From assembly GCF_023518235.1 (NCBI RefSeq), contig NZ_CP090423.1, positions 868,001 to 932,000 on the forward strand: a stretch of 64,000 nucleotides of DNA. Reading direction: 5' to 3'. Below, piece by piece: positions 23,134 through 40,644 of this stretch. Under the pieces are notes generated by a model. It had not been told where the DNA came from, did not search any database, and was given only the letters and a program-made list of their open reading frames with translations. The translations under genes were made by a program, and so were the position numbers. The stretch's first letter is position 1, and the number at the start of each line of letters is the position of its first letter. This DNA comes from Stenotrophomonas maltophilia. GTDB lineage: Bacteria > Pseudomonadota > Gammaproteobacteria > Xanthomonadales > Xanthomonadaceae.

Positions 23134-23672
23134 GGTGACACTCCTGCCAGCGGTGGCGTCGCCGCTGCCCAGCGCCGGGCGGCAAGGCACAGCACAGACA
23201 GCGCGATGCTCCAGCCTGCGCCGAGCAGCAGCACCCCACGCCAGGCTGGTGCGATGAACTGCACCGCACCGAAGCCGCGCGCGGCGGAAAGATAGGCCAG
23301 TGGTGCCAGCAGCAGGCCGAACAGGAACGGCAGCGCGGCATGGCGCTGCAGGAAGCGCATCGACGAGGTGAGCGTCATCGCGAACGCCGCCCACAGCGCC
23401 AGGATCCACGGTGGTGGCGCCCAGCCCAGCGGCGCTGCGGCATAGCGCACGGTGCCACTGGCGGCGGCGCTGGCATCCACCAGCCAGGCGCACGCCAAGG
23501 CAAGCAGGATCAACCGCAGGTCCAGGCGGACGTGCGGAGAGCTCGACAGCTGGCTGCCGATGTACAACGCCGCACCCAGCAGCGCAGGCCACTGCAAGCC
23601 GCGGCCCGCGCCGGCCACGGCGCACAGCCAGACCAGCTGGTTGCCCACCAGGTTGACCCAGGGCCGGCGCAT
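23130..23672 (-). CDS. DUF2878 integral membrane protein
   Basis: 180 residues, about five or six membrane helices, starting MRRPWVNLVGNQLVWLCAV, which is the usual DUF2878 N-terminus. It begins one base after the cyclopropane synthase stop and overlaps DUF1295 by four bases. DUF2878 is repeatedly found in clusters with DUF1365, amine-oxidase-type proteins and cyclopropane synthases; its biochemical role is unknown to me. Confidence 0.75.
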   Translation of the reverse strand: MRRPWVNLVGNQLVWLCAVAGAGRGLQWPALLGAALYIGSQLSSSPHVRLDLRLILLALACAWLVDASAAASGTVRYAAAPLGWAPPPWILALWAAFAMTLTSSMRFLQRHAALPFLFGLLLAPLAYLSAARGFGAVQFIAPAWRGVLLLGAGWSIALSVLCLAARRWAAATPPLAGVSP

Positions 23673-26972: not shown

Positions 26973-27926
26973 TCAGTACCTCGCTTTGGCCAGCACCCAG
27001 GCCGGAATCGGCTTGAGTCCTTTCACAAGGCCCAGCAGCGCCATCACGCGCAGACCGTACCAGGTCAGGTCCACCTCCCACCAGCGGAACCCCTGGCGCA
27101 CGGTGCCGGGGAAGAAGTGATGATTGTTGTGCCAGCCTTCGCCAAAGGTCAGCAACGCCAGCCAGAGATTGTTGCGGCTGTCGTCACGGGTTTCGAAACG
27201 GCGGCGACCGAAGCGATGTGCCAGTGAATTGATGGTGACGGTGGCATGGAACAGCACCACCGTTGAGATGAAGAAGCCCCACACCAGCAGTTGCGGTCCA
27301 TCGGTGTGCAATGCCGGCGCCCAGCGCTGCAATGCTTCACCGGCGGCATAGAGGCTGGCCGCGAGCAGCACAGGTACCGCCGTATCGAAGCGGTCCAGCC
27401 AACGCAGCTCGGGAAAGACCGCCAGATCCGGTATCCGTGACAGATCGGTCGCGAAGGCGTCACGGGTCAGGAACCACCCCATGTGGCTGCGCCAGAAGCC
27501 TCCCTCGCGCGGCGAGTGCGGATCCAACGGCTGGTCGGCATGGCGGTGGTGGTGGCGATGGTGCGCGGCCCACCATAGCGGCCCGCGCTGCACGCTGGCG
27601 GCACCGATGGCCGCGAACAGGAACTGCACTCCACGCGAGGTCTGGAAGGTACGGTGGGAGAAGTAGCGGTGATAGAACGCGGTGATGGCAAACATGCGGA
27701 CCGCGTAGAGTGCCGCGGCGACCATGACCGCCGTCCACGAAATGCCGACCCAGATCACCGCCAGGCAAGCCAGGTGCATCAGCGCGAACGGCACCGCACG
27801 CAGCCAGTCGATGCGCCCGCCGCACTCGACTGCAGCGTCGAGCGCACTGCCGGTGTCAAACCACCGTTGCAGTGTGCGCAACAGGCGATGGCGACGACGG
27901 GGTAGGGACTCGACAGCGGCCATCAT
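26973..27926 (-). CDS. Acyl-CoA/acyl-lipid delta-9-type desaturase
   Basis: 317 residues, integral membrane. The three histidine boxes of di-iron desaturases are present: HRYFSH (residues 86-91), HHRHH (122-126) and HNNHH near residue 258. Hydrophobic segments precede box one and separate box two from box three. Two adjacent ATGs (27926, 27923) are possible starts. First gene of the eight-gene lipid operon; its promoter (27952-27981) matches the ECF promoter shared with the sigma factor gene. It should introduce a double bond into saturated acyl chains, supplying substrate for the methyltransferases downstream. Confidence 0.9.
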   Translation of the reverse strand: MMAAVESLPRRRHRLLRTLQRWFDTGSALDAAVECGGRIDWLRAVPFALMHLACLAVIWVGISWTAVMVAAALYAVRMFAITAFYHRYFSHRTFQTSRGVQFLFAAIGAASVQRGPLWWAAHHRHHHRHADQPLDPHSPREGGFWRSHMGWFLTRDAFATDLSRIPDLAVFPELRWLDRFDTAVPVLLAASLYAAGEALQRWAPALHTDGPQLLVWGFFISTVVLFHATVTINSLAHRFGRRRFETRDDSRNNLWLALLTFGEGWHNNHHFFPGTVRQGFRWWEVDLTWYGLRVMALLGLVKGLKPIPAWVLAKARY

Positions 27927-27951: not shown

Positions 27952-27981
27952 TCTACGCAGCATCGGCGCGTTTGGATGCAG
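27952..27981 (-). promoter_or_regulatory. ECF-type promoter of lipid operon
   Basis: Minus strand: CTGCATCCA (27981-27973), 15-base spacer, CGTAGA (27957-27952). Predicted start near 27945, about 19 bases before the desaturase ATG. Same element and spacing as four other promoters in the window. Confidence 0.85.
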
Positions 27982-27993
27982 AACGTGTGGAAT

Positions 27994-28761
27994 TCACCTC
28001 TCCGTAACAGCGCAGGTGGCGACCAGCGGCTGTGCCCATGCGCGCCGCCACTGCGCTTCGTCGCGTGGCTCCGGGGCGGTGGCAAAGCGCACCGCAACCT
28101 GCGGGTAGCGGCCCTGGCCGTCGCGCAGATTGCTGGTGCCGCGGAATTCCAGCAGGCGTCGATCGGCATCGGCATAGGTCAGTGCCAGCCGCGGTGCGAC
28201 GCTTCCATACCACGCGTCCAGGCCCACCTCGAAGGACTGCGCGGCGATGTTCTTCCAGCGCACCGCGCCGCGGTGGACAACCTTGACCGGAAAGAAGCGC
28301 TGCCGACCCGGCACGAGGAAGGGCATGCGCAGCACCTCACCGCGCATCAACGCCTGCCAATGCAGGCGGATCGCGGCGTCGAACCCGGCATCGACCACCG
28401 CGCCCTCGGGCAGCGCGAGCTCGCCCGAGCGCGGCGTGGCGGACTGCGATTCCTTCCATGACACCTGCACCTTGGGGCCATCCACACGCACGCTCGCCTC
28501 CTGGCCGCTGCGCCGGTCCTGCAGCTGATAGCCGCGGGCCTGCACCACGTGGCTGGAGGGCAGCCGCTTGCGGGCGAAGGGGGCGCCCTCCGGACACAGA
28601 TACTGTACCCAGCGTTCGGCACCTTCCTCGGTGCTTTGCATCCAGTGCACCTCACGATAGGCCGGCGTGCCATCGGCGAGGCTGGCCACCCCCTCGGTTC
28701 GCAGCATCGGGGCGGACCAGGCCATCTGGGGCAGGCACAGCAGGAGCCAGACAGTACGCAT
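27994..28761 (-). CDS. Exported hypothetical protein of the ECF regulon
   Basis: 255 residues with signal peptide MRTVWLLLCLPQMAWSAP; GGAAGC lies six bases before the ATG at 28761. The mature protein is beta-rich with no obvious catalytic motif, and its last part contains FEVGLDAWYGSVAPRLALTY. It may be a periplasmic lipid-binding or lipid-associated protein. It lies between the sigma factor gene and the lipid operon and has its own promoter, back to back with that of the sigma factor. Family not recognised. Confidence 0.7.
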   Translation of the reverse strand: MRTVWLLLCLPQMAWSAPMLRTEGVASLADGTPAYREVHWMQSTEEGAERWVQYLCPEGAPFARKRLPSSHVVQARGYQLQDRRSGQEASVRVDGPKVQVSWKESQSATPRSGELALPEGAVVDAGFDAAIRLHWQALMRGEVLRMPFLVPGRQRFFPVKVVHRGAVRWKNIAAQSFEVGLDAWYGSVAPRLALTYADADRRLLEFRGTSNLRDGQGRYPQVAVRFATAPEPRDEAQWRRAWAQPLVATCAVTER

Positions 28762-28789
28762 GCGCTTGCTTCCGGCGGGGATTGCAGAG

Positions 28790-28819
28790 CCTACGGCTGG
28801 TCCAGGCAGATGGATGCAG
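28790..28819 (-). promoter_or_regulatory. ECF-type promoter of exported protein gene
   Basis: Minus strand: CTGCATCCA (28819-28811), 15-base spacer, CGTAGG (28795-28790). Predicted start ~22 bases before the ATG at 28761. Its -35 box faces that of the divergent ECF promoter, seven bases away. Confidence 0.8.
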
Positions 28820-28826
28820 CGGCGGC

Positions 28827-28856
28827 CTGCATCCAGTTGCGCCCTTCTGCCGTAGA
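28827..28856 (+). promoter_or_regulatory. ECF-type autoregulatory promoter of sigma factor operon
   Basis: CTGCATCCA (28827-28835), 15-base spacer, CGTAGA (28851-28856). Predicted start near 28863. Identical in both boxes to the lipid operon promoter, as expected for autoregulation. Confidence 0.85.
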
Positions 28857-28891
28857 GGAAGCAAACCTTCACCCGCCCGCTGCGAACGCAG

Positions 28892-29515
28892 ATGTACCCT
28901 GACGCCGCCCCCACCTCCCTTGACTTCGACACCGCCCGCATCGTGTCCAGTTCCCAGCAGCCGAATAACGAGCCGATGAACTGGACAGGCGACATGGAGG
29001 GTGTCGCGCGCCTGCGCGACCGCGACTGTTTCATGCGCATCTACGACCACTTCATGCCGCGGCTGTGCGTCTACCTGCGTGGCCTGGGCGCACCCGCTGC
29101 GGTGGCCGAGGAACTGGCCCAGGAATGCCTGCTGCGGCTGTGGCTGCGTGCGGCCGATTTCGACCCGGCGCAGGGCGCACTGAGTACCTGGCTGTACCGC
29201 ATCGCGCGCAACCTGCACATCGATCGGGTGCGCCGTGAGCGCGGCTGGATGCAGGTGCAGGCGGCGGTGGATGAGGCCGCCAGCGCCGATCTGGTGGAGC
29301 GCAGCAGTGCAGAACAGTTCGCCGACCAGATGCGGCTTCGCCAGCGCATCAATGAACTGCCTGCCGTACAGGCGCGGCTGGTGCGCATGTCGTACTTCGA
29401 AGCCAAGAGCCATGCCGAGATCGTGCAGGCGCTGGGGATGCCGCTGGGCACGGTGAAATCGCACCTGCGGCGCGCATTCCTGCAGCTGCAGGCGAGGGTA
29501 GGGGGGGGCGCATGA
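28892..29515 (+). CDS. rpoE: ECF sigma factor of the RpoE-ChrR (singlet oxygen) type
   Basis: 207 residues from 28892, or 179 from the ATG at 28976. Region 2 is around CFMRIYDHFMPRLCVYLRGL and LSTWLYRIARNLHIDRVRRE; region 4 is around EAKSHAEIVQALGMPLGTVKSHLRRAF. It belongs with ECF factors partnered by ChrR, since the next gene is a complete ChrR. The upstream start is used because it lies ~29 bases after the predicted transcription start and the first 28 codons show normal third-position bias. However, neither start has a strong RBS, and the later one suffices for a full region 2. It recognises, by inference, the CTGCATCCA-N15-CGTA promoter found five times here. Confidence 0.85.
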   Translation: MYPDAAPTSLDFDTARIVSSSQQPNNEPMNWTGDMEGVARLRDRDCFMRIYDHFMPRLCVYLRGLGAPAAVAEELAQECLLRLWLRAADFDPAQGALSTWLYRIARNLHIDRVRRERGWMQVQAAVDEAASADLVERSSAEQFADQMRLRQRINELPAVQARLVRMSYFEAKSHAEIVQALGMPLGTVKSHLRRAFLQLQARVGGGA

Positions 29516-30186
29516 GCCCGCGCCATCACCTGCACGAATCCACCCTGATGAGCTACGCCGCCGGCGCCTTGCCTGCGCCCTTGAGTGTGGTGGCAGGCGT
29601 CCATCTTGAGCAATGCCCACACTGCCGGCAGCGACTGCGTGAGGCCGAAGCCATCGGCGCGGCCCTGCTGGAACAGACCCAGCCGGTGACGCAGGAATCG
29701 CGGCATGCGCAGTTGCGCGGCGCCATGCTCGCGCAGCTGGACCTGGCCGGCGAGGCCGCCCCAGGCCGCGCGCCCTCCCCCCGTGGCCGCGTCGAGCCCG
29801 GCGCTGATCCCGATGCCTTGCCGGTATCGCTGCATCCGTATTTCGGCCGCTCGCTGCGCAGCCTGCCGTGGCGCTGGATGGCGCCGGGCGTACATTGCAT
29901 CCGCGCCGAGCAGATGCCGTCGCTGATCATGCTGAAGATCGCCCCCGGCAAGTGCCTGCCGATGCACAGCCACGGCCGCTCGGAACTGACCCAGATTCTG
30001 CAGGGCTCCTACAACGATGCGCTGGGCCTGTTCACCCCGGGCGACATGGCCGATCTGGATGAGGACATCGAGCATCAACCGGTGACGGCTCCTGGTGTGC
30101 CCTGCATCTGCGTCTCTGCGCTGGATGCCCCGCTGGTGTTCAGTGGCTGGCTGGCGCGGAGAATCCAGCGCTTTGTGAAGCTGTAG
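29512..30186 (+). CDS. chrR: ChrR-family zinc anti-sigma factor with cupin domain
   Basis: 224 residues, overlapping the sigma gene as ATGA. The N-terminal zinc anti-sigma domain has His6, His31, Cys35 and Cys38 (HLEQCPHC), the same residue numbers I recall for the characterised Rhodobacter sphaeroides ChrR. The C-terminal cupin-like domain has His152, His154, Glu158 and His188 (MHSHGRSE..EHQP), again with the spacing of the ChrR metal site. A Pro/Arg-rich linker (~82-103) joins them. It should hold the sigma factor inactive until singlet oxygen or organic peroxide leads to its loss. All metal ligands are intact, so it is predicted functional. Confidence 0.93.
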   Translation: MSPRHHLHESTLMSYAAGALPAPLSVVAGVHLEQCPHCRQRLREAEAIGAALLEQTQPVTQESRHAQLRGAMLAQLDLAGEAAPGRAPSPRGRVEPGADPDALPVSLHPYFGRSLRSLPWRWMAPGVHCIRAEQMPSLIMLKIAPGKCLPMHSHGRSELTQILQGSYNDALGLFTPGDMADLDEDIEHQPVTAPGVPCICVSALDAPLVFSGWLARRIQRFVKL

Positions 30187-30197
30187 GCGGGCGGGTG

Positions 30198-30890
30198 ATG
30201 GGCGACGCAGGGCGAGTGCGGGTTCTGCTGGTCGGCGCAACAGGCCTGGTCGGGCAGGGCGTGGCGCTTGCGTGCCAGCGCTCTGCCGAGGTCGCTGCGC
30301 TGACGGCGCTGGTCAGGCGGCCGGGCGGTCTCAAGGGGGTCGGCAGTGAGCGGGTCGTGGCGGATTTCCTGCGCATCGATGCGCGGGTCGATGATCTGGC
30401 GGGGTTCGATGCCTGCTTCTATTGCGCCGGCGCCACGCCGATCGGGACGGGCGAAGATGAGTATCGGAGGGTGACCTTGGACACCACCGTTGCTGTTGCC
30501 CGCACTTGGGCCGATGCAAATCCCCAGGGCACTTTCCTGTACGTATCCGGTGCCGGTGCCAATCCGCGAAGCCGCTTGATGCCGTTGCGGGTCAAGGGCC
30601 AGGCCGAGGAGGCGCTACGCGCACTGCCGGTACGTACCGTCATGCTGCGTCCCGGAGGCGTGCGGCCCGTGCCAGGAACCGGCACCCGTCATGCTCTGCT
30701 GAAGCCCCTGTACTGGGGCGGTGCACCGTTGATGAAGCTGGCCGGGGCGCTCTCGCCATCGCTGGTCACCAGCAACCTCGCGCTGGGACGGGCGATGATC
30801 GCGCTGGCCGGCATGCAACGCCCACCGCAGGCGGTGGAATGCGATGAGATCAACCGGATCGCCGCCGGAAGGGGCGATCCGGCCGGCTGA
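30198..30890 (+). CDS. NAD(P)-binding Rossmann protein (NmrA/SDR-like)
   Basis: 230 residues. N-terminal nucleotide-binding motif VLLVGATGLVGQGVAL (~8-23). FLYVSGAGAN (~113) and RVKGQAEEAL (~131) match the atypical short-chain dehydrogenase pattern in which a Ser and a Lys remain, as in the HTATIP2/YbjT group. It follows chrR by 11 bases and is probably the third gene of the ECF operon. A quinone or lipid-aldehyde-related reductase is plausible; the substrate is unknown. GTG at 30195 is an alternative start. Confidence 0.75.
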   Translation: MGDAGRVRVLLVGATGLVGQGVALACQRSAEVAALTALVRRPGGLKGVGSERVVADFLRIDARVDDLAGFDACFYCAGATPIGTGEDEYRRVTLDTTVAVARTWADANPQGTFLYVSGAGANPRSRLMPLRVKGQAEEALRALPVRTVMLRPGGVRPVPGTGTRHALLKPLYWGGAPLMKLAGALSPSLVTSNLALGRAMIALAGMQRPPQAVECDEINRIAAGRGDPAG

Positions 30891-30892
30891 AC

Positions 30893-33292
30893 TCAGTGCG
30901 CCGCGCCGTCCAGTGCCCCCCTGACGGCCTGTGCGAGGTCGCTGCGGGTGAACGGCTTGGGCAGCAGGGCGGCCACGCGCCCCTGGCTGCCAACCGCATC
31001 ATGGTCGCGCGGGTAGCCTGAAGTGAACAGGACGGCCACCTCCGGCCAGCGCTCACGCACTTCGCGCACAAGCTCCCAGCCTGACATGCCGGGCATGACC
31101 ACGTCCGAGAACAGCAGGTCCACCCGGGTGTCCGGCCGTTCCAGCAGACGCAGTGCAGACGGCCCGTCATGCGCCTCCAGTACGCGGTAGCCCAGCAGCC
31201 GGAGCGCATCCACGGTGTGCGCGCGCACATCGTCGTTGTCCTCTGCCACCAGGATCGTTTCCTCGCGTGGCTCGTAGCCGGCCAGCCCGGGCAGCGCCGG
31301 CGTCGGCTCACTGGGAAGCGCCAGCGCCGAGCGCGGGAACATCATGGTGATGCTGGTGCCACCGCCTTCAACCGAGTCGATGAGGACGTGGCCGCCGGAC
31401 TGCTTGACGAAGCCATGCACCATCGACAGGCCCAGCCCGGTGCCGCGGCCGACCTGCTTGGTGGTGAAGAACGGCTCGAACACGCGGGCCAGCGTATCGG
31501 CGTCCATGCCGTGGCCGTTGTCGCGCACCCGCAGCATCACGTACTCGCCGGGCAGTGCATCGGGGAACAGGGCGGCGTAATCGTGGTCGAGGTGGCTGTT
31601 GTCGACCTCGATCGTCAGTCGCCCGCCGTGCGGCATCGCGTCGCGGGCGTTGACCGCCAGGTTGAGCACGGAGGCTTCCAGCTGGCTGACATCGATCTCC
31701 ACGCACCAGATATCGGCCGCTGCGCGGATCTCCAGCTGCACCAGCTCGCCGAGTGCACGTTGCAGCATGTCCTGCATGTCCATCAGGCGATCATTGAGGT
31801 TGGTGGCCTGGCTGTGCAGGGGCTGGCGCCGCGCGAATGCAAGCAGCCGCTGGGTGAGGCTGGCGGCGCGGCCAACCCCCTTCAGCGCGTTGTCCAGGGC
31901 GCGGCTGACCATGAGGCCGGGCTCGCCGGCGCGCTCGCTCAGCAGCATGGCGTGCTCGACGTTGCCGGAGATGACGGTCAGGATGTTGTTGAAATCGTGG
32001 GCGATGCCGCCGGTCAGCTGGCCCACAGCCTCGATCTTCTGTGACTGGCGCAGCGCGTGCTCGGCCTGCAGCCGGGCGGTGGTTTCCACCGCCTCGGATA
32101 CCACGGCGGTGACCGCACCGTCGCCATCGAGCAGCGGGCGCAACGAAAAGTCGAAACTGCGCCGGCCGGTGGGCAGCTCCAGGTCGAGCGAATGCAACGA
32201 GCTGCGGCCCTGCGCGGCCTCGGCAACTGCACGGTCGAGCCTGGCGCCGACGTCGTCGGTGGTGGCGAACCACGGCGATTGCCCGAAACGCTGGCCAACC
32301 ACTTCGTGCTTCTCGGCCAGGACGGAGGCCAGCGAAGCCACGTTGGCATCGACCACATGGCCGTCCAGGTCCAGCAGCACCTGGTGCTGGAAGCTGGATT
32401 CGAAGATCGCCTGCAGGCGCCGCTTGCTGCCGCGCAGCTCGGCCGTGCGCGCCTGTACCTGGCGCTCAAGCAGCTGGTTGTCCTCACGCAGTGCCAGTTC
32501 GGCCTGTTTCAGGCCCGAGACATCGCTGCCCAGGCAGATGTAGCCGACCACGTTGCCATCGGTGCCGCGCTGCGGCACGCAGTCCATCTGCACGAAGCGC
32601 GACTGGCCACTGCGATGCACCAGCTCAACCTGGAAGCGGGTGCGCTCACCCAGCAGCACGCGTTCCAGGCTGGGCAGGGCGTGTTCGAACGCGGAAATGC
32701 CGCTGACCTCGCGCGCCGTGCGGCCGAGCAGTTCAGCCAGGCTGATGCCGTGCCAGTCCAGGAAACTCTTGTTGGCGAACCGGTAGCGGTGTTCGTTGTC
32801 GAGCTGGGCGATCAGTGCCGGCACCGCGTCGGTGACCTGCTGCAGCTGAGCCTGGCTGTCATCCAGGGCCGCCTGCGCCTGCGCGAGCTGGTTGCGCTCA
32901 CGGGCTTCCTGCTGGGTACGACGGATCGCATCGGGCAGGCGCTGCAGGCGCTGCTTGACCACGTAATCGCGCGCGCCTCGGGTCAGCGCCTGCACTGCCA
33001 GCTCTTCGGTCAGGGTGCCGGAGACAAAGATGAAAGGGGTCTGCGGCACCCGCTCACGAGCCAGTGCCAGGGCGGCATCGCCATCGAAGCCGGGCAACAC
33101 GTGATCGGCCAGAATCACGTCGAAGGACCGGCTGTCGATTGCCTCGATGAAGGCGTTGCGCGTCCACAGCCGCTCGGCCTCGAACTCCAGGCCGGCACGC
33201 TGCAGCTGCGCGGAGATCAACTCCGCGTCAAGCGCACTGTCCTCCAGCATGAGGATACGCAGGCGCTCGCTGCGGCGTGATCCATCATGCAT
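30893..33292 (-). CDS. Hybrid histidine kinase with N- and C-terminal receivers
   Basis: 799 residues. Receiver 1 (~10-125; acidic pair MLEDS, phospho-acceptor in VILADHVLPG), two PAS domains (~150-270 and ~300-420), HisKA with the autophosphorylated His in GGIAHDFNNIL (~460), HATPase (GRGTGLGLSMVHGF), and receiver 2 (~680-795; LFSDVVMPGMSG). The ATG at 33292 overlaps the response regulator stop by eight bases. No membrane segments, so it is cytoplasmic. Last gene of the heme oxygenase-bacteriophytochrome operon; it could form a phosphorelay with the bacteriophytochrome and its response regulator. Convergent with the SDR-like gene, two bases apart. Confidence 0.88.
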   Translation of the reverse strand: MHDGSRRSERLRILMLEDSALDAELISAQLQRAGLEFEAERLWTRNAFIEAIDSRSFDVILADHVLPGFDGDAALALARERVPQTPFIFVSGTLTEELAVQALTRGARDYVVKQRLQRLPDAIRRTQQEARERNQLAQAQAALDDSQAQLQQVTDAVPALIAQLDNEHRYRFANKSFLDWHGISLAELLGRTAREVSGISAFEHALPSLERVLLGERTRFQVELVHRSGQSRFVQMDCVPQRGTDGNVVGYICLGSDVSGLKQAELALREDNQLLERQVQARTAELRGSKRRLQAIFESSFQHQVLLDLDGHVVDANVASLASVLAEKHEVVGQRFGQSPWFATTDDVGARLDRAVAEAAQGRSSLHSLDLELPTGRRSFDFSLRPLLDGDGAVTAVVSEAVETTARLQAEHALRQSQKIEAVGQLTGGIAHDFNNILTVISGNVEHAMLLSERAGEPGLMVSRALDNALKGVGRAASLTQRLLAFARRQPLHSQATNLNDRLMDMQDMLQRALGELVQLEIRAAADIWCVEIDVSQLEASVLNLAVNARDAMPHGGRLTIEVDNSHLDHDYAALFPDALPGEYVMLRVRDNGHGMDADTLARVFEPFFTTKQVGRGTGLGLSMVHGFVKQSGGHVLIDSVEGGGTSITMMFPRSALALPSEPTPALPGLAGYEPREETILVAEDNDDVRAHTVDALRLLGYRVLEAHDGPSALRLLERPDTRVDLLFSDVVMPGMSGWELVREVRERWPEVAVLFTSGYPRDHDAVGSQGRVAALLPKPFTRSDLAQAVRGALDGAAH

Positions 33293-33752
33293 TGTGCTGC
33301 CCCGAGCCATTGGGACGATGCGGCGGTGGCTGGTTGGTGATGCCCCAGAACATGCCCAGGCCCTGGATGGCATCGAAGAATTCCTTGAAATCCACCGGCT
33401 TGACCACGAAGGCGTTCACGCCCAGTTCGTAACTGCGCACGAGATCCTGCTCTTCGCGGGAAGAAGTCAGCATGACGATGGGCGTGCTGCTCAGTTGCGG
33501 ATCACCGCGGACCTGTTCCAGCACTTCCAGCCCGTTGATCTTGGGCAGTTTCAGATCCAGCAGGACCACCACCGGCCCGCCGTGGTTGGCACCGGCAAAC
33601 TTGCCTTCGCAGCGCAGGTAGTCCAGCGCTTCGGCGCCGTCGCGTACATGGATGACATCGTTCAGCAGCTGACAGCGCGACAGCGCGGCCAGGGTCAGCT
33701 CGGCATCCTTGGGGCTGTCCTCGACCAGGAGGATCGGCCGCAGGTCCCTCAT
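33285..33752 (-). CDS. bphR: Single-domain response regulator of bacteriophytochrome
   Basis: 155 residues, only a receiver domain. Acidic pocket VEDSPKD, phospho-acceptor Asp in VVLLDLKLPKINGLEVL, Thr/Ser in VMLTSS, Lys in FVVKPVDF. Receivers of this Rcp1-like type commonly follow bacteriophytochromes. It overlaps the phytochrome stop (ATGA) and the hybrid kinase start. It may pass phosphate between the two kinases. Confidence 0.88.
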   Translation of the reverse strand: MRDLRPILLVEDSPKDAELTLAALSRCQLLNDVIHVRDGAEALDYLRCEGKFAGANHGGPVVVLLDLKLPKINGLEVLEQVRGDPQLSSTPIVMLTSSREEQDLVRSYELGVNAFVVKPVDFKEFFDAIQGLGMFWGITNQPPPHRPNGSGQHNA

Positions 33753-35988
33753 GGGTTATCTCCTGTGGAACGGGGTAGGGTGAAGTGGAGGGTGGCGCCC
33801 TTGCCGGGCTCGCCTTCGGCCCAGGTGCGGCCGCCATGGCGGCCGATGATGCGGCGCACGTTGGCCAGGCCGATGCCGGTGCCTTCGAATTCCTCGACGT
33901 GATGCAGGCGCTGGAATACCCCGAACAACTTGTCGACGTAGCGCATGTCGAAGCCGCAACCGTTGTCGCGCACGAAGAAGTGGTCTTCCTCGGCGTCACG
34001 CGCATGGCCGATCTCGATCAGCGTCGCGTCACGCTCGCGGGTGAACTTGATGGCATTGGCCAGCAGGTTCTGCCAGACCAGGCGGATCATCGTCGGGTCG
34101 GCCTCGACCTCGGGAAGCGGCGCGATCTGCCATTGCATCGCGCGGCCGGCATAGTCCAAGGCCAGGCTCTGGCGTACATCCTCGACCACCGCGGCCATGT
34201 CCAGGCGGACCCGGCCCAACGTCGAGCGGCCCATCTGCGAGAAGCTCAGCAGGTCATCCACCAGCGTGCCGGCCGACTTGGCCGATTCCACGATGGTGTC
34301 CAGGAAGCGGCGCTCGGTATCGTTGAGGCGCTCACCGGCCGAGCTGCCCAGCAGCTCCGAATAGCCCACGATGTGACGGAACGGGGCGCGCAGGTCGTGG
34401 CTGACCGAATAGGAGAAGGCTTCCAGCTCCTTGTTGCTGCGCAACAGCTGCTCGTTGAGCTCAGCCATTTCCTCGGCCTTGCGCAGCACGATGTCGACGA
34501 TCGCAGTTCGCATCTCGTGCGCGGCGTCGCAGTCGGCATCGCTCCAGGGCAGGCTGCGCTGGTGCACGGTTTCCTTCCACGCATCGAACGAGTTGCGCGG
34601 TGACAGCGGCGTGCCAGGTGCAGCGGTCTTGCGCGGGTCTCCGCCCCAACGCACCGTGCGCACCACTTCGGGCCGGAACCACATCAGATAGCTGTCGTGC
34701 AGCTGCGAAATGGACACGGCCAGCACGCCACTGGCCACGTCGCTGAGTTCAGCTGCCGGGGCCCAGTCAGCGGCCAGGTGCTCGGTGCAGTAGGTTTCCT
34801 GGCCGGCCTGCTGGCTGGCCAGCCATGCGGCCAGCGCCAGCACATCGTTGGCAGCCGGGCACTGTCCCACGCGCAGGCACTGGCCCTTGTGCACGATGGC
34901 GGCACCGGCCGCACCGGTCAGCGACAGGAGGCTGGCCTCATCGTGACGCAGCGCCGCCATGAAGTCCTCATCGCCGGCCATGCGTGCGAGCAGCTTGACC
35001 AGCACCGAACGGCGCGCCACGCGCTCTTCGATCGCGCGCGCGCGCTCCTTCAGGGCGATCTGCAGTGACAGGATCTGGCCCATGAACTCGCAGGCGGTGC
35101 GCACGTGGTACGGCAGGCGCCGCGGCAGCACGGTGTGGCAGGACACCAGCCCCCACAGCTGGCCTTATGCACCAGCGAGACCGACATCGACGCGCCGGTG
35201 CCCATGTTGCGCATGTAGTGCAGATGTACCGGCGAAACGCTGCGCAGCACGGCCAGGCTCAGGTCGGTGGCGGGCGCGTCGCGATGGTGCTCGGCACGCA
35301 TCAGGGGGGCGGGCGTGTAATTGTTGTCAGCAATCAGGCGTACGCGGTTGCGGCGATACAGCTCGCGGGCCTGGGCCGGGATGTCCGACTCGGGGAAGCG
35401 CAGGTCCAGATAGGACGGCAGCAGCCCGTTGCCATCCTCAGCCACCACCACGCCGTTCCAGCCGGGATCGAACTGATAGACCAGGGTGCGGTCGAAGCCG
35501 GTGAGCCGACGCATGTGCGCTGCGGCCAGCTGGCAGAGATCCTCCACCGTAGCGGCGGATTCAATGTCGGTCATCAGCTGGCGGATGGCGGGGTAGAGCT
35601 CCTCCAGCGAACCGGGCTGGCCGGCAACAGGCGCCTCCAGCTCCACCAGCAGGTCGGTGGCCGAGCGGTGGACCAGCAGTTGATGCCGGCCATGTCCATC
35701 CAGATGCACGGCACCGACATGCGCGCTGCTGCCGATGGCCGCTTGCTGGAACAACGCCGTGAAGGGGGCGAGCACGCCGCCCAGCACTTCATCGATGCGT
35801 TGTGTCAGCGGCTCACCATGCTGCTGCAGCAGTGAGGGCTGGCTGATCGCGCGCTCGTGCACGCGCAATGATTCCGGATCCACGACCAGCAGTACGCCGT
35901 AAGGCTGGATGGCGCCGGGCGTATGGATTGGTTCGCGCGCACAGCTGGTGAGCGGGGAATCGTGCGCGGGCTCGACAGATGACATCAA
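33749..35988 (-). pseudogene. bphP: Bacteriophytochrome histidine kinase with one-base frameshift
   Basis: Biliverdin-binding photoreceptor kinase. The N-terminal part (35988 inward) has PAS with the chromophore Cys16 (SCAREPIHTPGAIQPYG) and GAF with FPESDIP. The frame is lost near 35163 within the conserved HKGQLWGLVSCH segment: the sequence GGCC there should be GGCCC. Restoring one base on the minus strand gives HKGQLWGL-VSCHTVLPRRL and joins the C-terminal part: PHY with the tongue motif PRNSF, HisKA with SYSVSHDLRAPF, and HATPase. Repaired length would be 746 residues, normal for the family. Without repair the product stops at 35050 after 312 residues. This is either a true inactivating mutation or a sequencing error. 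Confidence 0.9.
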
Positions 35989-36101
35989 AGGCGGGGCTCT
36001 CGATTGAAAGGTCGCGCGCGGTGGATCTCAAGCGCAGCGTTGTTTGATGGTGAAGCAAAAGTCTCCATTGGCCTACTACTTCCTGCAGGTGGAAGGGCAT
36101 T

Positions 36102-36689
36102 TCATTCGAAACTGAACTCTTCATCCACGCAGCGGCGTACGAACTGGAAGGCATCCGAGGCGCCGGCACAGGCCTGCGATTGCCCGGTACTGTCCAGTGC
36201 GACCGCATCGAGCCGCTCGCGTGCGCGCCTCCAGTATTCGGCGACGCCCAGTGGTGACGGCGCCAGGTGGCGCGCACCGTAGCGGCCGTGCAGGCCCAGC
36301 GCCGCTGCCGCCTTCAGCAGAACGGCGGCACCCAGCGTCGAGCCTTCAGCCACGTAATGCCAACCGAGCGCTGCGGCGGGGCTGGCAACGTGCAGCGATG
36401 GTCGCCAGCCATGCGCGGTGGGCGGTCGCGCGCCCAGATCAGCGAGGTCGTGCACTATCAACTGCAGGCGTCCCGCTGCGGCATCTGCGCTTCGGTCGAG
36501 GGAGGCAACCGCCTCGTGGAAGTGCCATTGGACACGCAGAAAGCAAAGATAGCGTTCGCGGGAGGCAAAGATACGCTGCTTCAGCAGGTGCTGGTCCAGG
36601 CGATCATGCACGTCGCGGGTATGCGTCTTGAGCACAACACTGAGAAGGGCCGCCAAGGGCGGTTGCGGGGGCGGGGTGGGAGTAGGCAT
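36102..36689 (-). CDS. bphO: Heme oxygenase-like biliverdin synthase
   Basis: 195 residues, all helical. The proximal His segment is LKTHTRDVHDRLDQHLL (~19-35), and the distal helix appears around ALGWHYVAEGSTLGAAVL, where the usual GS/LGG-type bend is GSTLGA. It would open heme to biliverdin, the chromophore of the bacteriophytochrome encoded next in the operon. The start at 36689 lacks a clear RBS; the proline-rich first 13 residues may be non-native and a later start is possible. The gap to bphP is 113 bases. Confidence 0.85.
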   Translation of the reverse strand: MPTPTPPPQPPLAALLSVVLKTHTRDVHDRLDQHLLKQRIFASRERYLCFLRVQWHFHEAVASLDRSADAAAGRLQLIVHDLADLGARPPTAHGWRPSLHVASPAAALGWHYVAEGSTLGAAVLLKAAAALGLHGRYGARHLAPSPLGVAEYWRRARERLDAVALDSTGQSQACAGASDAFQFVRRCVDEEFSFE

Positions 36690-36816
36690 TGCGGGGTACG
36701 GTAGCAGAGTCGGCCGTAGAGGCAGGTGCAGATTTCGCGGCCAGTGCATGTGCGCTGCACGCCGGCTCGACACCCGCTTTCCTACGCTGAACGCACACCC
36801 ACCCGCCCTTACGCCC

Positions 36817-37110
36817 GTGAACCTGCACACCCTGCCATCTAGGCCGTACCGCCTGCTGCCCGACAGCTGCCAGTTTGAACTGCTGGACGTGGATGCGCTG
36901 CAGGACCCTGCCGGTGGCCGACTCCTGCATCTGTACTCCGTGGTTGCGCGCTGCCTGAGCTGCGAGACCGTGTTCAAGGCAGAAGAAGGGCAGGGTCTGG
37001 TCAGCCATTCCAGCGCACGCGTGGTGCGATGCCCGGGTGGTTGCGGCCAGCAGGCATTCAAGCCGGCGCTGCTGCGTGCCTGGTGCCCGCAGGTCCCGGT
37101 ACTGGCATGA
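36817..37110 (+). CDS. Small hypothetical protein with CxxC-type zinc ribbon
   Basis: 97 residues from a GTG at 36817; an upstream in-frame ATG exists at 36628 but that part overlaps the bphO 5' end. CLSC (~49-52) and CPGGC (~73-77) are about 25 residues apart, the layout of a small zinc ribbon. No family recognised. Divergent from bphO and convergent with tspO. Confidence 0.45.
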   Translation: MNLHTLPSRPYRLLPDSCQFELLDVDALQDPAGGRLLHLYSVVARCLSCETVFKAEEGQGLVSHSSARVVRCPGGCGQQAFKPALLRAWCPQVPVLA

Positions 37111-37126
37111 CCCGCCTGCGAGGCGC

Positions 37127-37612
37127 TCACAGCACTCCGGGGTTGGCGCGCCACACCGCGAGGTTGAGTGTCGAGGCAAACGTGATCCAGCCCAGATAGG
37201 GCAGCAGCATTACCGCAGCAAGGGCGCGTATGCGCGCGAAGGCGATGAGGGTTGCGACCACCAGCATCACAAGCAGCAGAATGTCGACCAAGGCGAGCGC
37301 CCCCAGCCTCCAGCCGAAGAACAGCCAGCTCCAGAGCGCATTGACGCCGAGCTGCAGAAGATAGAGCGTCAGCGCAGGCCGGGTTGCTGCTGTGCCACGT
37401 TCGCGCCAGACCAGCCAGGCGGCAACCGCCATCATGGCGTAGAGCAGGGTCCAGACCGGGCCAAACAGGCTTGCAGGTGGTGCCCAGGCCGGCAGTGCGA
37501 GGGTGGCGTAGAAGCTGGCCGCCGAAGTGGACGCCCACGCCCCGAGCGCAGCGGCGGCAAAGGTGATCGTGAACCATCCGAGGGCGCCCAGCGCCTGCGT
37601 GCTCCACTTCAT
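37127..37612 (-). CDS. tspO: TspO/MBR (tryptophan-rich sensory) protein
   Basis: 161 residues with five membrane helices. Characteristic segments are WAPPASLFGPVWTLLYAMMAVAAW, Trp-rich LGVNALWSWLFFGW, and the C-terminal PYLGWITFASTLNLAVWR. In proteobacteria TspO binds porphyrins and has been linked to oxygen- and light-dependent control. Its promoter (37646-37675) carries the ECF element of this window, which places it in the ChrR-linked regulon and ties tetrapyrrole handling to singlet oxygen stress. Confidence 0.92.
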   Translation of the reverse strand: MKWSTQALGALGWFTITFAAAALGAWASTSAASFYATLALPAWAPPASLFGPVWTLLYAMMAVAAWLVWRERGTAATRPALTLYLLQLGVNALWSWLFFGWRLGALALVDILLLVMLVVATLIAFARIRALAAVMLLPYLGWITFASTLNLAVWRANPGVL

Positions 37613-37645
37613 TCCGGCCCAGCTCCCCGTTGCACATGCCCCCCG

Positions 37646-37675
37646 TATACGTACTACGGGGGCAAATGGATGCAG
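37646..37675 (-). promoter_or_regulatory. ECF-type promoter of tspO
   Basis: Minus strand: CTGCATCCA (37675-37667), 15-base spacer, CGTATA (37651-37646). Predicted start ~27 bases before the ATG at 37612. The spacer and -10 lie within a GC-rich inverted repeat around CCCCCGTAGTACG/CGTATACGGGGG. Confidence 0.82.
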
Positions 37676-37686
37676 TGCCCGTTTGA

Positions 37687-39867
37687 TCAGTCTGAGGTGC
37701 CTGCGGCACCGGACTCCTCACTGGCAGGCAGCAGGCCGGGCTGTTGCTCGAACCACTCCCGAGCCTTGGCCAGATGCCAATGGCGCTGGCCGCCGTCCAG
37801 TTCAATGCCTGCGCCCAGCAGCCCCCAGCGCAGGTAGAGGTCGCCGCGCTTGCGTTGTTCCAGCAGGTCCAGTCTCGCGCGCACCGACAGCCGATCGTTC
37901 TCCGCCTGCAGGTTGTCGACCACCAGGTGGCCTGCACGCCAGCGCAGCCTGGCCTGTGCGTCGATCTGGCCGGAATCCAGCAGCGACAAGGTCCAGCGCG
38001 GATAATCGGTGCGCTGGGCAAACAGTGCCAGCAGGGGGCGTGCATCACTCAGGGTCAGATCGGTGGTGGCATCCACCTGGAATGGCGACTGTGCATCGAT
38101 GCGACCGCGCTTGAAGGCAACGCGCCCCTGCCAGGCCGTGTCACGCGGCGTGCCGCTCACCTGCACATTGCGCAGCGCAACGGTGGTGCCGGACAGGTCG
38201 AAATGACGCTGGTTGAAGTCGCCGCGGCGAAGTGTTGCATTGACCTCAACGTCGCCGCCCATATCCAGCCCGGCAACCTTGGCCTGTGCCTTTTGCCCCA
38301 GAAGACGTGCGCTGCCATGGCCAACGCGGCCGTCGGTATCGAGGGTGGCATCGCCGCTGAGCACGCCGATACCGCTCAGCAGGCGCACCTGGGGCGAGCG
38401 AAGATAGCGGTTATAGGCGGCCAGATCGGGAATGTCGGCCTCGCTGAAGCGCAGACGTGCGCGTACACCCTTGCGCAGTTCCTGCAGGCGTCCATCGCCA
38501 CTCAGGTCCAGCGCCAGGTCGCGGCCATCGAACAGTCGCACGTCCTTGGCGTCGCTCGGGCGTGCGCTGAAGCGTGGCAGGCGCACCGCGAGCAGCGCCT
38601 GGCTGGGTGTGCCGGCCTTCAATTCGCCATGTGCACTGGCCGTGCCGGCAAGACGAACGCCGGCGACCTCGGCCACCGCCTCAGCGGCAGGAATGTCCAC
38701 CGTACTGCCTTCGATCAGCTCGCCATTGCGCAGGCGCAGATCGGCTTTCAGCGTGCCGCCGCCGTCCAGTTGCAGCCAGGGCTTGCGCACGAACAGGGCA
38801 GGGATCCAGTTGAGCGAAGTGAAGGCCCATTCGCCACGCACCGTGCCTGAGCTGCGCTCCAGCAGCTGGGAGGGCTGCTGGAACGGGATCTCGCGGCTGC
38901 GGATGTGCAGGTCCGCGTCGACTTCGGCGCCCGAGCCCGGTCGTGGCGGCAAGCGCGCCTGCAGGCGCAGATCGTCGGCCACATTCAGCTGGAGCGCGAG
39001 CACGCCGCGATCGGGCGCACCGTCACCCATCTGCAAGGGCACATGCCAGAGCGCATGGTCACCGGGCTGGAGTTGCCCGTTCGCAAGATGCAACTCGGCG
39101 CGCAGCCGGCCGGCCACTGGCGAGCTGGCAATCTTCGGCCGCAGCGCCTCGGTATCCATGCGCAGGCCCTGGCTGCGGGCATCGACGCTCAGCGCGGCGC
39201 GCAGCAGCTTCAGTTTGGCCAGGCCCGGCGCCTGGTCCCGATAGTGGCGCGGATAGCTGAAGCGCGCGGTCAGGTTCATGTCGCCCAGCAGTTGCACGCC
39301 ATCGAAGCTGGTGTCGGCTTCCTTGAAGGTGACGGTGGAGTCGAGCAGTTCCGACGGGCCACCGCGCAGCTGCTTGACGAAACCGACCGTGCCCTGGCCC
39401 CGGCCGATGATCAGCAGTTTGCCAAAGCGGGCGCTGCGGATGCTGTCGCTGTGGATCGCGTCGAAGCGCAGCGTCCAGCCCTGGTCGCTGCGGGGAGGGG
39501 GAGGGATGGCGTCCTCGACCCGGCTGATCTCGGCTGAAACGCCGGTGGCCTGCAGCCGTGGTACCCGCACCTGGCGTTGGAACAGCGGCAGCACGGCCAG
39601 CCGGGCGCTGGCGCGCTCGGCGTGCAGCACGTACACCGTATGGTTCACATGCCCGCGCATATGCACGTTCCAGGCAATGACATGCCCGGGCAGCACAGTC
39701 ATGGCCGGGCCCGTGGTCATCACGAACTTGTGGGGCTTGCGGTTGGTGACCTGATCGAACAGCGGTGTATTGAGAAACAGGTTGCCGGCCAGCAGATAGA
39801 CGGCATAGACCACCAGCAGTGCGCGCAGCGCCACGCGTATCGGTCGGGGCCAGTGCCGGTAGCGCAT
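37687..39867 (-). CDS. AsmA/TamB-like large envelope protein
   Basis: 726 residues. One N-terminal membrane helix (IRVALRALLVVYAVYLLAGN, ~10-29) is followed by a long periplasmic region of repeating beta strands. Segments such as LQLDGGGTLKADLRLRNGEL, LDTDGRVGHGSARLLG and VDATTDLTL are typical of AsmA-like/DUF748-type bridge proteins. Such proteins form grooves for phospholipid transport between membranes or affect outer-membrane assembly. Located between two ECF-regulon genes, but with no copy of the element in front of it. Confidence 0.65.
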   Translation of the reverse strand: MRYRHWPRPIRVALRALLVVYAVYLLAGNLFLNTPLFDQVTNRKPHKFVMTTGPAMTVLPGHVIAWNVHMRGHVNHTVYVLHAERASARLAVLPLFQRQVRVPRLQATGVSAEISRVEDAIPPPPRSDQGWTLRFDAIHSDSIRSARFGKLLIIGRGQGTVGFVKQLRGGPSELLDSTVTFKEADTSFDGVQLLGDMNLTARFSYPRHYRDQAPGLAKLKLLRAALSVDARSQGLRMDTEALRPKIASSPVAGRLRAELHLANGQLQPGDHALWHVPLQMGDGAPDRGVLALQLNVADDLRLQARLPPRPGSGAEVDADLHIRSREIPFQQPSQLLERSSGTVRGEWAFTSLNWIPALFVRKPWLQLDGGGTLKADLRLRNGELIEGSTVDIPAAEAVAEVAGVRLAGTASAHGELKAGTPSQALLAVRLPRFSARPSDAKDVRLFDGRDLALDLSGDGRLQELRKGVRARLRFSEADIPDLAAYNRYLRSPQVRLLSGIGVLSGDATLDTDGRVGHGSARLLGQKAQAKVAGLDMGGDVEVNATLRRGDFNQRHFDLSGTTVALRNVQVSGTPRDTAWQGRVAFKRGRIDAQSPFQVDATTDLTLSDARPLLALFAQRTDYPRWTLSLLDSGQIDAQARLRWRAGHLVVDNLQAENDRLSVRARLDLLEQRKRGDLYLRWGLLGAGIELDGGQRHWHLAKAREWFEQQPGLLPASEESGAAGTSD

Positions 39868-40010
39868 CAGGATCAGGGTTTCACCTTCCAGGGCGGGAGA
39901 ACGCCACTATTGCCGAGCCCGTGGCGGCGGGGCGTGAACGTTGGCGTGACCCGTCACGCAGACAGACGGCCACGGCGGACACGGCGAGCGTATCCGCCGC
40001 GGTGGCGCCG

Positions 40011-40571
40011 CTACTTCGGCATCAGCACCGAATCAATCACGTGGATCACGCCGTTGGACTGGGCGACGTCGGCAATGCTGACCGCGGCCTTTCCGCCCTT
40101 GGCATCGACAAGCCACAGCTTTCCGTCGTGCAGCGCAACGGTCAGCGGCTCGCCTTCGACGGTTTTCAGGGTGGCCTTGCCGCCATGCTTCCGGGCATCG
40201 GCCATCAACTGCATGGCGCTGTAATTGCCGGGCACCACGTGGTAAGTGAGGATCCGGGTGAGCTGGGCCTTGTTCTCAGGCTTCACCAGCGCATCCACCG
40301 TACCGGGCGGCAGCTTGTCGAAGGCCGCATTGGTGGGTGCGAAAACGGTGAAGGGGCCTGCACCATTCAGGGTGTCGACCAGGCCGGCGGCCTTCACGGC
40401 GGCCACCAGGGTGGTGTGGTCCTTGGAGTTGACCGCATTGGCGACGATGGTGCGGGTCGGATACATCTCCGCACCACCGACCATGACCGGGCCGGCCGCA
40501 AAGCTGACCGTCGCGGCGGAAGCAAATACGGCGAAACCTGCAGCAGTGGCAATACGCTGGAGAACGTTCAC
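40011..40571 (-). CDS. Exported fasciclin-domain protein
   Basis: 186 residues from a GTG at 40571 with GAGGGAC upstream; an ATG at 40610 would lie at the predicted transcription start and is rejected. Signal peptide to about VSFAAG, then one complete fasciclin (FAS1) domain with GPFTVFAPTNAAFDKLP (~85-101) and LTYHVVPG (~121-128), ending GVIHVIDSVLMPK. FAS1 proteins mediate adhesion or protein binding, and fasciclin genes recur in ECF regulons. The matching promoter at 40615-40644 places it in the ChrR-linked regulon. Confidence 0.9.
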   Translation of the reverse strand: MNVLQRIATAAGFAVFASAATVSFAAGPVMVGGAEMYPTRTIVANAVNSKDHTTLVAAVKAAGLVDTLNGAGPFTVFAPTNAAFDKLPPGTVDALVKPENKAQLTRILTYHVVPGNYSAMQLMADARKHGGKATLKTVEGEPLTVALHDGKLWLVDAKGGKAAVSIADVAQSNGVIHVIDSVLMPK

Positions 40572-40614
40572 GGTACGTCCCTCGATTGGGCGCCCGCCAG
40601 GTGCGGGCACCTAA

Positions 40615-40644
40615 GCTACGTTGCCGGGCCGCAGATGGATGCAG
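40615..40644 (-). promoter_or_regulatory. ECF-type promoter of fasciclin gene
   Basis: Minus strand: CTGCATCCA (40644-40636), 15-base spacer, CGTAGC (40620-40615). Predicted start near 40608, about 37 bases before the GTG at 40571. Confidence 0.82.

Follow-up and report, generated by a model that had tools for sequence, protein, structure and literature searches.

We analyzed a window of 64,000 nucleotides from Stenotrophomonas maltophilia (positions 868,001-932,000 of the forward strand of NZ_CP090423.1, assembly GCF_023518235.1; the whole genome comprises 4,918,013 bases). It contains the genes for an extracytoplasmic function (ECF) sigma factor and the anti-sigma factor ChrR, next to a divergent gene for an exported protein and an eight-gene lipid operon, with tspO and a gene for a fasciclin-domain protein further along. 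Each of these five units is preceded by a copy of one sequence, CTGCATCCA-N15-CGTA, and we consider it highly probable that the five copies are promoters of an ECF11-type sigma factor (28892-29515) that is held inactive by ChrR (29512-30186). The sites are:

27954..27981, minus strand: predicted ECF promoter of the eight-gene lipid operon (GCATCC-N16-CGTA), exact pattern
28792..28819, minus strand: predicted ECF promoter of the divergent exported protein, exact pattern
28827..28854, plus strand: predicted ECF promoter of sigma-chrR-chrA, exact pattern; the motif suggests autoregulation
37648..37675, minus strand: predicted ECF promoter of tspO, exact pattern
40617..40644, minus strand: predicted ECF promoter of the fasciclin gene, exact pattern

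The genes that they face are:

28892..29515, plus strand: ECF sigma factor with region 4.2 PLGTVKSHLRRAF; Pfam sigma r2/r4; best PDB match R. sphaeroides RpoE, 2q1z (E 2.4e-25)
29512..30186, plus strand: ChrR anti-sigma factor (zinc domain and cupin); TIGR02451, 155.5 bits (cut-off 124.5); 2z2s_B, E 5.3e-34
30195..30890, plus strand: chrA, NAD(P)-binding protein; Pfam PF13460; gene order as in S. maltophilia rpoEc-chrR-chrA (PMC11832516)
27994..28761, minus strand: exported protein at the position of Smlt2375; export judged by eye from its start, no Pfam or NCBIfam match
26973..27926, minus strand: fatty acid desaturase, first gene of the lipid operon; Pfam PF00487
25694..26971, minus strand: flavin amine oxidase; Pfam PF01593
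24930..25742, minus strand: DUF1365 protein; Pfam PF07103
23674..24645, minus strand: cyclopropane fatty acid (CFA) synthase (scanned part, the true start lying further upstream); Pfam PF02353
23130..23672, minus strand: small protein of the lipid operon, an open reading frame (ORF)
22348..23160, minus strand: DUF1295 protein (query stretch; scanned as 22348-23295); Pfam PF06966
21278..22351, minus strand: CFA-synthase-like methyltransferase (scanned as 21278-22612); Pfam PF02353
20736..21269, minus strand: lipocalin, last gene of the lipid operon; Pfam PF08212
37127..37612, minus strand: tspO; Pfam PF03073
40011..40571, minus strand: fasciclin-domain protein, exported as judged by eye; Pfam PF02469

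The first-pass annotation had described five copies of the pattern with identical spacing and an operon of eight lipid genes, and both descriptions hold. The window contains exactly five matches, compared with a mean of 0.01 and a maximum of 1 in 100 dinucleotide shuffles. The genome-wide search that the annotation had named as a check returned the same five as the only exact matches, with none for the reversed pattern and 0.09 expected from base composition. All five lie within 13 kb. The intervals given earlier were at the correct places and equal the pattern matches plus two bases after CGTA. The distance from CGTA to the start codon is 27 bases for the desaturase, 30 for the exported protein, 37 for the sigma factor, 35 for tspO and 45 for fasciclin; the 19-37 bases stated before hold when the count begins at a start point lying 7-8 bases past CGTA, not at CGTA itself. 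For fasciclin we read the start as the GTG at 40571, preceded by GAGGGA (by eye), rather than the start of the longer ORF at 40610. The sites of the exported protein and the sigma factor stand back to back with 7 bases between them.

Only part of the pattern is fixed in relatives: the GCATCC core stands, and the CT before it and the A after it vary. The conserved core, GCATCC[A/G]-N15-CGTA, has nine matches in this genome, the five sites and four extra ones. The four extra matches and the five matches with one mismatch to the exact pattern (one common to both groups) were rejected as further regulon members because all lie inside reading frames. Allowing up to two mismatches gave 182 matches, of which 5 are exact, 5 have one mismatch and 172 have two; the reversed control gave 55, and the list was too noisy to yield further members. 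In a profile search trained on 50 relatives' sites (150 of 4381 candidates scored, 20 listed), the five sites took ranks 1, 2, 3, 4 and 6. We discarded rank 5, which falls within a TonB-dependent receptor gene, and rank 7, which is covered by long frames on both strands. The remaining 13 profile matches are weak (E 1.28-4.82), and their surroundings fall outside the count of examined extras. Among the extra matches examined (one-mismatch, core, and profile ranks 5 and 7) there is no sixth intergenic site. At the sensitivity used, the direct regulon is one locus in this genome.

The sites are conserved in relatives at the same genes. We compared loci of the order that were found through ChrR (48 loci, of which 47 were used; L108 was left out as a weak, partial match outside the order). 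The core precedes the sigma gene in 45 of 47 loci (exceptions L090 and L107), the exported protein gene in 31 of 32 (exception L090), the desaturase gene in 34 of 35 (exception L096), tspO in 18 of 19 (exception L106) and fasciclin in 2 of 3 (exception L074). The tspO count leaves out L076, where the alignment is partial although the site is present. In all, these loci hold 140 core sites in 938,370 bases, and the five gene types account for 130; the other ten are in L076 (tspO), L095, L106, L107 and six loci of the S. rhizophila group. The sites in relatives consist of two conserved blocks at fixed spacing with freer sequence between them. Of the 31 genomes of the genus, 23 carry fasciclin genes, at 24 loci in total; at 15 of these loci the site lies 70-115 bases ahead of the fasciclin match.

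The ChrR protein aligns with 2z2s with the residues at the zinc positions (RHH, HLEQCPHC) and at the cupin positions (PMHSHGRSELT, DIEHQPV) kept; we take the ligands to be H, H, C and C for zinc and H, H, E and H in the cupin. Its score against the equivalog model NF051881 (141.9) is below the cut-off of 300. The pair resembles the R. sphaeroides sigmaE-ChrR system (ECF11; 2q1z/2z2s) in ChrR family, sigma family and a core regulon with lipid genes (PMC6852236). It is unlike that system in its -35 element, GCATCC rather than TGATCC, and in the recognition helix of the sigma factor, KSHLRRA in the window, KSRIRLA in R. sphaeroides and usually KSRxRLA. The window pair is of the ECF11/ChrR kind with a variant promoter.

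The arrangement matches the sigmaEc-ChrR-ChrA system described in S. maltophilia (Smlt2377-2379), with the same sigma-chrR-chrA order, a divergent exported protein and lipid genes, and downstream kinase and regulator genes (PMC11832516). In RNA sequencing (RNA-seq) of a chrR mutant of strain KJ, the exported-protein/lipid cluster was up 165- to 697-fold and sigma-chrR-chrA 19- to 45-fold, both increases reverting in a chrR rpoEc double mutant, and Smlt2380 was up as well (PMC11832516). That study treats the exported-protein and lipid genes as a single nine-gene operon (PMC11832516), whereas here a second conserved promoter splits gene 1 from the other eight; given the conserved site between the exported protein and the desaturase, the S. 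maltophilia cluster probably has a second internal start at the 27954-27981 site. As far as that account was covered, it contains neither tspO, fasciclin, the phytochrome identity discussed below, the -35 recoding nor an RskA alternative, and its motif is given in a figure only (PMC11832516). Conservation at five genes, ECF11 geometry and the published RNA-seq together support the ChrR-linked regulon that had been proposed from the window. The RNA-seq supports the membership of the sigma and lipid genes (PMC11832516), and tspO and fasciclin stay in the regulon as candidates.

All five window sites share the -35 element GCATCC instead of the TGATCC usual for ECF11, and their -10 element, CGTA with 16 bases after ATCC, is that of ECF11. 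Known ECF11 promoters in P. syringae (PMC5507510) and S. oneidensis, the latter with mapped starts, read TGATCC-N16-CGTA, and the P. syringae and Shewanella papers term this motif similar to the Rhodobacter one (P. syringae: PMC5507510). The window promoters share the ATCC-N16-CGTA core with those of P. syringae PSPTO_1043/1042, unlike them in the first two bases (PMC5507510). The departure from TGATCC had been noticed in the first pass, correctly, and it holds across those sigma factors of the order that carry Arg where the alignment places R176 of E. coli sigmaE; these have GC, GA or GG before ATCC.

To avoid circularity, the -35 elements upstream of ChrR-linked sigma factors were searched with the first two bases free (NNATCC-N16-CGTA). 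From 167 ChrR loci, which include some duplicates of one genome under two names (e.g. L095 and L191), 150 had a recognized sigma factor (17 were dropped) and 116 of these had a site. Where the R176 position is Arg, the first base is G in 67 of 67 rows (GC 63, GA 3, GG 1), many of them close relatives. Where it is Leu or Met, the first base is T in 44 of 47; the exceptions are L205 (AG), L242 (GC) and L246 (AC), and the sites of L205 and L246 are unusually far upstream. The single Lys row has A first and the single Ala row C. Two Arg rows lack a strict site, one of which, L090, has GCATCC with a spacer one base longer; among the 32 Leu-type rows that lack a strict site, 22 yield one to a looser search naming TGAT. 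Among the columns scored, the R176 column ranks first in mutual information with the first base, at 1.06 bits against 0.95 for the runner-up, and when mutual information is divided by column entropy it leads the eight columns listed in each comparison. In two solved complexes the R176-type Arg contacts the guanine at position -35, and the R173-type residue contacts its backbone (PMC6713349). In our own reading, the TGATCC register can be set against the GGAAC of sigmaE in two ways one base apart, and both would place the R176- and R173-type residues at the changed bases. Region 4.2 residues have been found to set the -35 element in a residue-base code of ECF sigma factors (Todor et al. 2020, as cited in PMC8103513).

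Several points weigh against reading this covariation as a change of specificity. A gappy linker column and others exceed the R176 column in raw mutual information when the second base or the dinucleotide is considered. In a tree built without region 4.2 (L205 and L246, whose matches lie >300 bases from the searched end, were removed, and same-sequence rows were merged from 114 to 104), the Arg-type sigma factors form one clade of 57 of the 104 rows (SH-aLRT 100), so that the covariation rests on one large clade and two single lineages. A sign test on independent pairs offers 2-3 contrasts, too few for significance. One clear exception exists, the gammaproteobacterial L242, with the usual KSRxRLA helix and yet a GCATCC promoter, and a P. 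syringae ECF11 target, tctD, has gcATCC and responds 7.15-fold (PMC5507510). The -35 shift and the helix change could accordingly be mere markers of a clade whose sigma factor still reads TGATCC. We hold this to be improbable, although it is the most serious of the alternatives: the R176-equivalent column ranks first for the first base, its residue contacts base -35 in the two solved complexes, and the two single lineages with Lys or Ala at this position have also lost the T. With 2-3 independent contrasts, the change from TGATCC to GCATCC and the change at the R176-equivalent residue are, as sequences, strongly associated and fit structurally; this falls short of statistical proof.

The fasciclin sites of the genus led to a second regulator. 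They match the presence of ChrR poorly: ChrR occurs in 12 of 15 motif-bearing and in 4 of 8 motif-less genomes. Three genomes have the fasciclin site without ChrR and contain another ECF sigma factor. Next to it lies an anti-sigma factor with an RskA_C domain (L283:1995-2765; PF10099, 73 bits, cut-off 29.4; assigned in the other loci by similarity). This RskA-linked sigma factor is 32% identical to that of the window and scores 140.1 bits against the SigK model NF007228, below its cut-off of 226. Among the 31 genomes, 8 have the RskA-linked sigma factor, 18 have ChrR, 4 have both and 9 neither. In 8 of 8 RskA-type loci, GCATCC-N16-CGTA stands ahead of an operon of exported protein, sigma factor and rskA, the exported protein being 41-47% identical to that of the window, and in 7 of 7 with enough sequence it also stands ahead of the desaturase of the same lipid operon, whose small protein is in order in 6 of 7 complete RskA-type loci. 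In 3 of the 4 genomes with both pairs (L317-L319), the lipid operon was not found at the ChrR locus in 13-16 kb, fetched mostly to one side. Two other family members, in loci picked by the motif (L032 and L057), have rskA, then the motif, then the desaturase.

The ChrR-linked and RskA-linked sigma factors are separated by a branch with 100/100 support, with 34 ChrR-linked proteins picked from the 150 on one side and 13 RskA-linked ones (5 from motif-picked loci) on the other. In every one of the 121 RskA-type proteins read (the query plus the 120 that were listed out of 3380), Trp and Arg occupy the two helix positions; Arg therefore looks old there, whereas among ChrR-linked sigma factors it looks derived. 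A move of the ChrR-linked sigma factor to the RskA-type -35 code is thereby suggested but not proven. The desaturase tree has 4 changes of regulator on the best tree and 3-4 in bootstraps, of which the starred branches force only 1.

With both sigma factors considered, the fasciclin site is confined to genomes that have at least one of them: all 15 site-bearing genomes have one of the two, and the site is found in 0 of 3 fasciclin genomes with neither. These counts bear on an explanation in which the sigma, exported-protein and lipid sites are real while those of tspO and fasciclin are unused or belong to another factor. It draws on the published RNA-seq, where tspO and fasciclin are absent from the 19 genes that, by our count, the parts covered here name out of 24 that depend on ChrR (PMC11832516), and on the genus genomes that combine a fasciclin gene with one of the two sigma factors, 5 of 20 of which lack the site. 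Set against these are the tspO site, kept also where the neighboring genes are gone and tspO directly follows chrA without phytochrome genes (L075, L077 and L078), and the fasciclin site, kept where the gene has moved to the far end of the lipid operon (L065 and L071, though not L074). Fasciclin is moreover tied to RpoE-ChrR in Azospirillum (Dubey 2021, as cited in PMC10949492), and in R. sphaeroides the fasciclin gene RSP_1409 rises under photo-oxidative stress (PMC7074977). We regard this explanation as unlikely. For tspO, the ECF11-type site here differs from the RpoHII dependence reported in R. sphaeroides (PMC8307010).

Other observations count against a ChrR-linked regulon of these five promoters, in addition to the missing genes and sites just given. 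The S. maltophilia RNA-seq was performed once, and the role reported there for the sigmaEc-ChrR homologue is in superoxide tolerance, not singlet oxygen (PMC11832516). No site was found by our patterns at yceA-cybB-yceB, which is ChrR-dependent in that study; its control may be indirect. Across the wider family, 53 of 198 genomes contain the strict motif. Of 30 motif-picked loci that were fetched, 9 have a queried sigma, desaturase or fasciclin gene next to them, 4 have weak matches there and 17 have neither, so that outside the genus the motif alone is weak evidence.

Because an RskA-linked sigma factor stands behind the same promoter in sister species, at its own operon and at the desaturase, the promoter by itself cannot be taken as a sign of control by ChrR, and the label "ChrR-linked" is argued for this genome, not for every genome that bears the motif. 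Another ECF sigma factor of this genome, for instance one akin to the RskA-type, might read the five promoters. We judge such a reader very unlikely: this genome has no match to the RskA-type sigma factor at E <= 1e-25 (25 candidates scored), no sixth intergenic site among the extras examined marks another autoregulated sigma factor (13 weak profile matches fall outside these), and the chrR-mutant RNA-seq in S. maltophilia points to the ChrR-linked one (PMC11832516). With no RskA-type sigma factor found, the ChrR-linked sigma factor is the best candidate for reading the five promoters. That the repeated sequence is an activator-binding site or a dispersed repeat, as its long conserved left block and the two back-to-back copies 7 bases apart could suggest, is scarcely credible given two blocks at fixed spacing with a freer middle, an ECF-type CGTA, sites that each point at their gene 27-45 bases from the start codon, and the geometry of ECF11 promoters with mapped starts.

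Promoter recognition by the sigma factor, the inducing signal and the functions of the outputs are the inferred parts of the following model. ChrR would hold the sigma factor 28892-29515 inactive; once released, the sigma factor would direct RNA polymerase to start at GCATCC-N16-CGTA and transcribe its own operon, the exported protein gene, the lipid operon, tspO and fasciclin. The lipid outputs (desaturase, amine oxidase, DUF1365 protein, two CFA-type methyltransferases and lipocalin) probably alter membrane fatty acids, TspO probably handles porphyrin photosensitizers, and fasciclin probably changes the cell surface. The -35 element would have moved away from TGATCC as the DNA-contacting helix changed from KSRxRLA to KSHLRRA. 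Sister species would use the RskA-linked sigma factor for the same promoter and lipid operon, and promoters and cargo seem to outlast sigma factor and sensor. This persistence is apparent from sequence comparison, which directly shows the sites, their restriction to a single locus at the sensitivity used, their conservation, the covariation and the RskA-linked locus; the exchange of regulators and its direction are deduced from it.

Mycobacterial SigK-RskA has an operon with an amine oxidase, DUF1365, CFA synthase and DUF1295, and fasciclin-domain antigens, MPT70 and MPT83; lipid genes and fasciclin proteins are common to the RpoE-ChrR and SigK-RskA regulons. The sister-species locus with its RskA-type anti-sigma factor is like this mycobacterial system. 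Light regulates MPT70/MPT83-type genes with putative SigK sites in M. kansasii (PMC9861118). The RpoE/ChrR pair of R. capsulatus looks closer to SigK/RskA than to its R. sphaeroides namesake, and the authors asked whether the locus had been remodelled or acquired (PMC7074977). In those cases the genomes compared are distant ones; here both types occur in one genus with the same operon and one promoter sequence. We speculate, at slightly less than even likelihood, that an entire stress regulon of the family (exported protein, furan/cyclopropane-type lipid operon and fasciclin) kept its promoters while its sigma/anti-sigma pair switched between unrelated types, the cytoplasmic zinc-cupin ChrR pair and the RskA pair, that the ChrR-linked sigma factor converged on the RskA-type code (Arg at R176), which enabled it to take over the promoters, and that two sensors feed one promoter set where both pairs coexist. 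A search of open-licence literature by title and abstract opening, supplements being outside its reach, found no paper on the GCATCC form or the two-regulator arrangement.

The locus offers a small ECF regulon, five promoters at a single locus at the sensitivity used, in which cis and trans elements are open to joint testing. Its -35 change, specific to the lineage and coupled with a change at a known base-contacting residue, makes a natural experiment in the evolution of sigma specificity, and two unrelated sigma/anti-sigma pairs in one genus with the same lipid operon and promoter make regulator replacement directly testable. The arrangement hints that bacteria may change the trigger of a response without changing the response, and it offers a bridge between the proteobacterial RpoE-ChrR and the mycobacterial SigK-RskA regulons. 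Judged by sequence, it also places TspO under an ECF11-type sigma factor in a non-photosynthetic genus, and possibly a bacteriophytochrome as well.

Downstream of tspO, on the same strand, follow bphO, a split bphP, a response regulator and a hybrid kinase:

36102..36689, minus strand: BphO-type heme oxygenase, perhaps transcribed from the tspO promoter; Pfam PF01126
33749..35988, minus strand: bacteriophytochrome gene, present as two frames here, with matches to PAS_2/GAF and PHY/HisKA/HATPase in the pieces
33285..33752, minus strand: response regulator; Pfam PF00072
30893..33301, minus strand: hybrid histidine kinase, by Pfam; counterpart by position of Smlt2380

The gap of 437 bases between tspO and bphO contains neither a terminator nor a sigma-70-type promoter by simple scans, and a search for a separate ECF site before bphO or bphP gave only weak, unconserved 8-of-10 matches. 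The gap also holds a small conserved frame on the opposite strand (36820-37110, plus), which encodes a CxxC-rich protein with no Pfam match and tempers what the scans say about co-transcription. Read-through from the tspO promoter into the phytochrome genes is plausible, at a likelihood near even. In P. syringae, ECF11 drives bphO-bphP behind a first gene, and bphO responded 12.85-fold to sigma overexpression, while the promoter was rated as not induced in reporter assays with singlet oxygen and tert-butyl hydroperoxide (tBOOH) (PMC5507510). There the leading gene encodes a hypothetical protein and is not called tspO, and the lipid genes follow phrB (PMC5507510).

The bacteriophytochrome gene of the window is broken into two overlapping frames at 35050-35146, for which either a genuine frameshift or an error of assembly could account; in relatives it is one open frame of about 750 codons in 8 of 9 loci examined and of 688 in the ninth. 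In 5 of 10 examined loci where bphO was not found (L062, L066, L073, L076 and L079), a remnant of the heme oxygenase C-terminus (EEFSF) lies just upstream of bphP (minus strand, L062:16597-16611 and L079:16608-16622), and bphO therefore seems to have been lost by deletion with the phytochrome retained. In L091 tspO follows chrR, and chrA and the phytochrome genes were not found; in L065 tspO, chrA and the phytochrome genes were not found; this part of the locus is thus variable among strains. The S. maltophilia loci read, which do not include strain KJ itself, have relatives of the window bacteriophytochrome, response regulator and hybrid kinase at the position of the published sensor kinase (PMC11832516), so the sensor kinase near sigma-chrR-chrA is very likely a phytochrome.

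The same promoter also stands ahead of one gene near sigma-chrR in the S. rhizophila group (L086-L089, L092 and L105, near 12.5 kb), which in L089 encodes a GAF-GGDEF-EAL protein. A GAF-GGDEF-EAL gene is likewise preceded by the promoter at L317:8639 and L319:4498; in L318 the gene is present and the site ahead of it was not found. P. syringae ECF11 drives GAF and diguanylate cyclase genes as well (PMC5507510). In L131 and L133, about 480 bases in on a reverse-strand reading, the core precedes a gene for an exported-looking protein (by eye) about 1 kb upstream of fasciclin.

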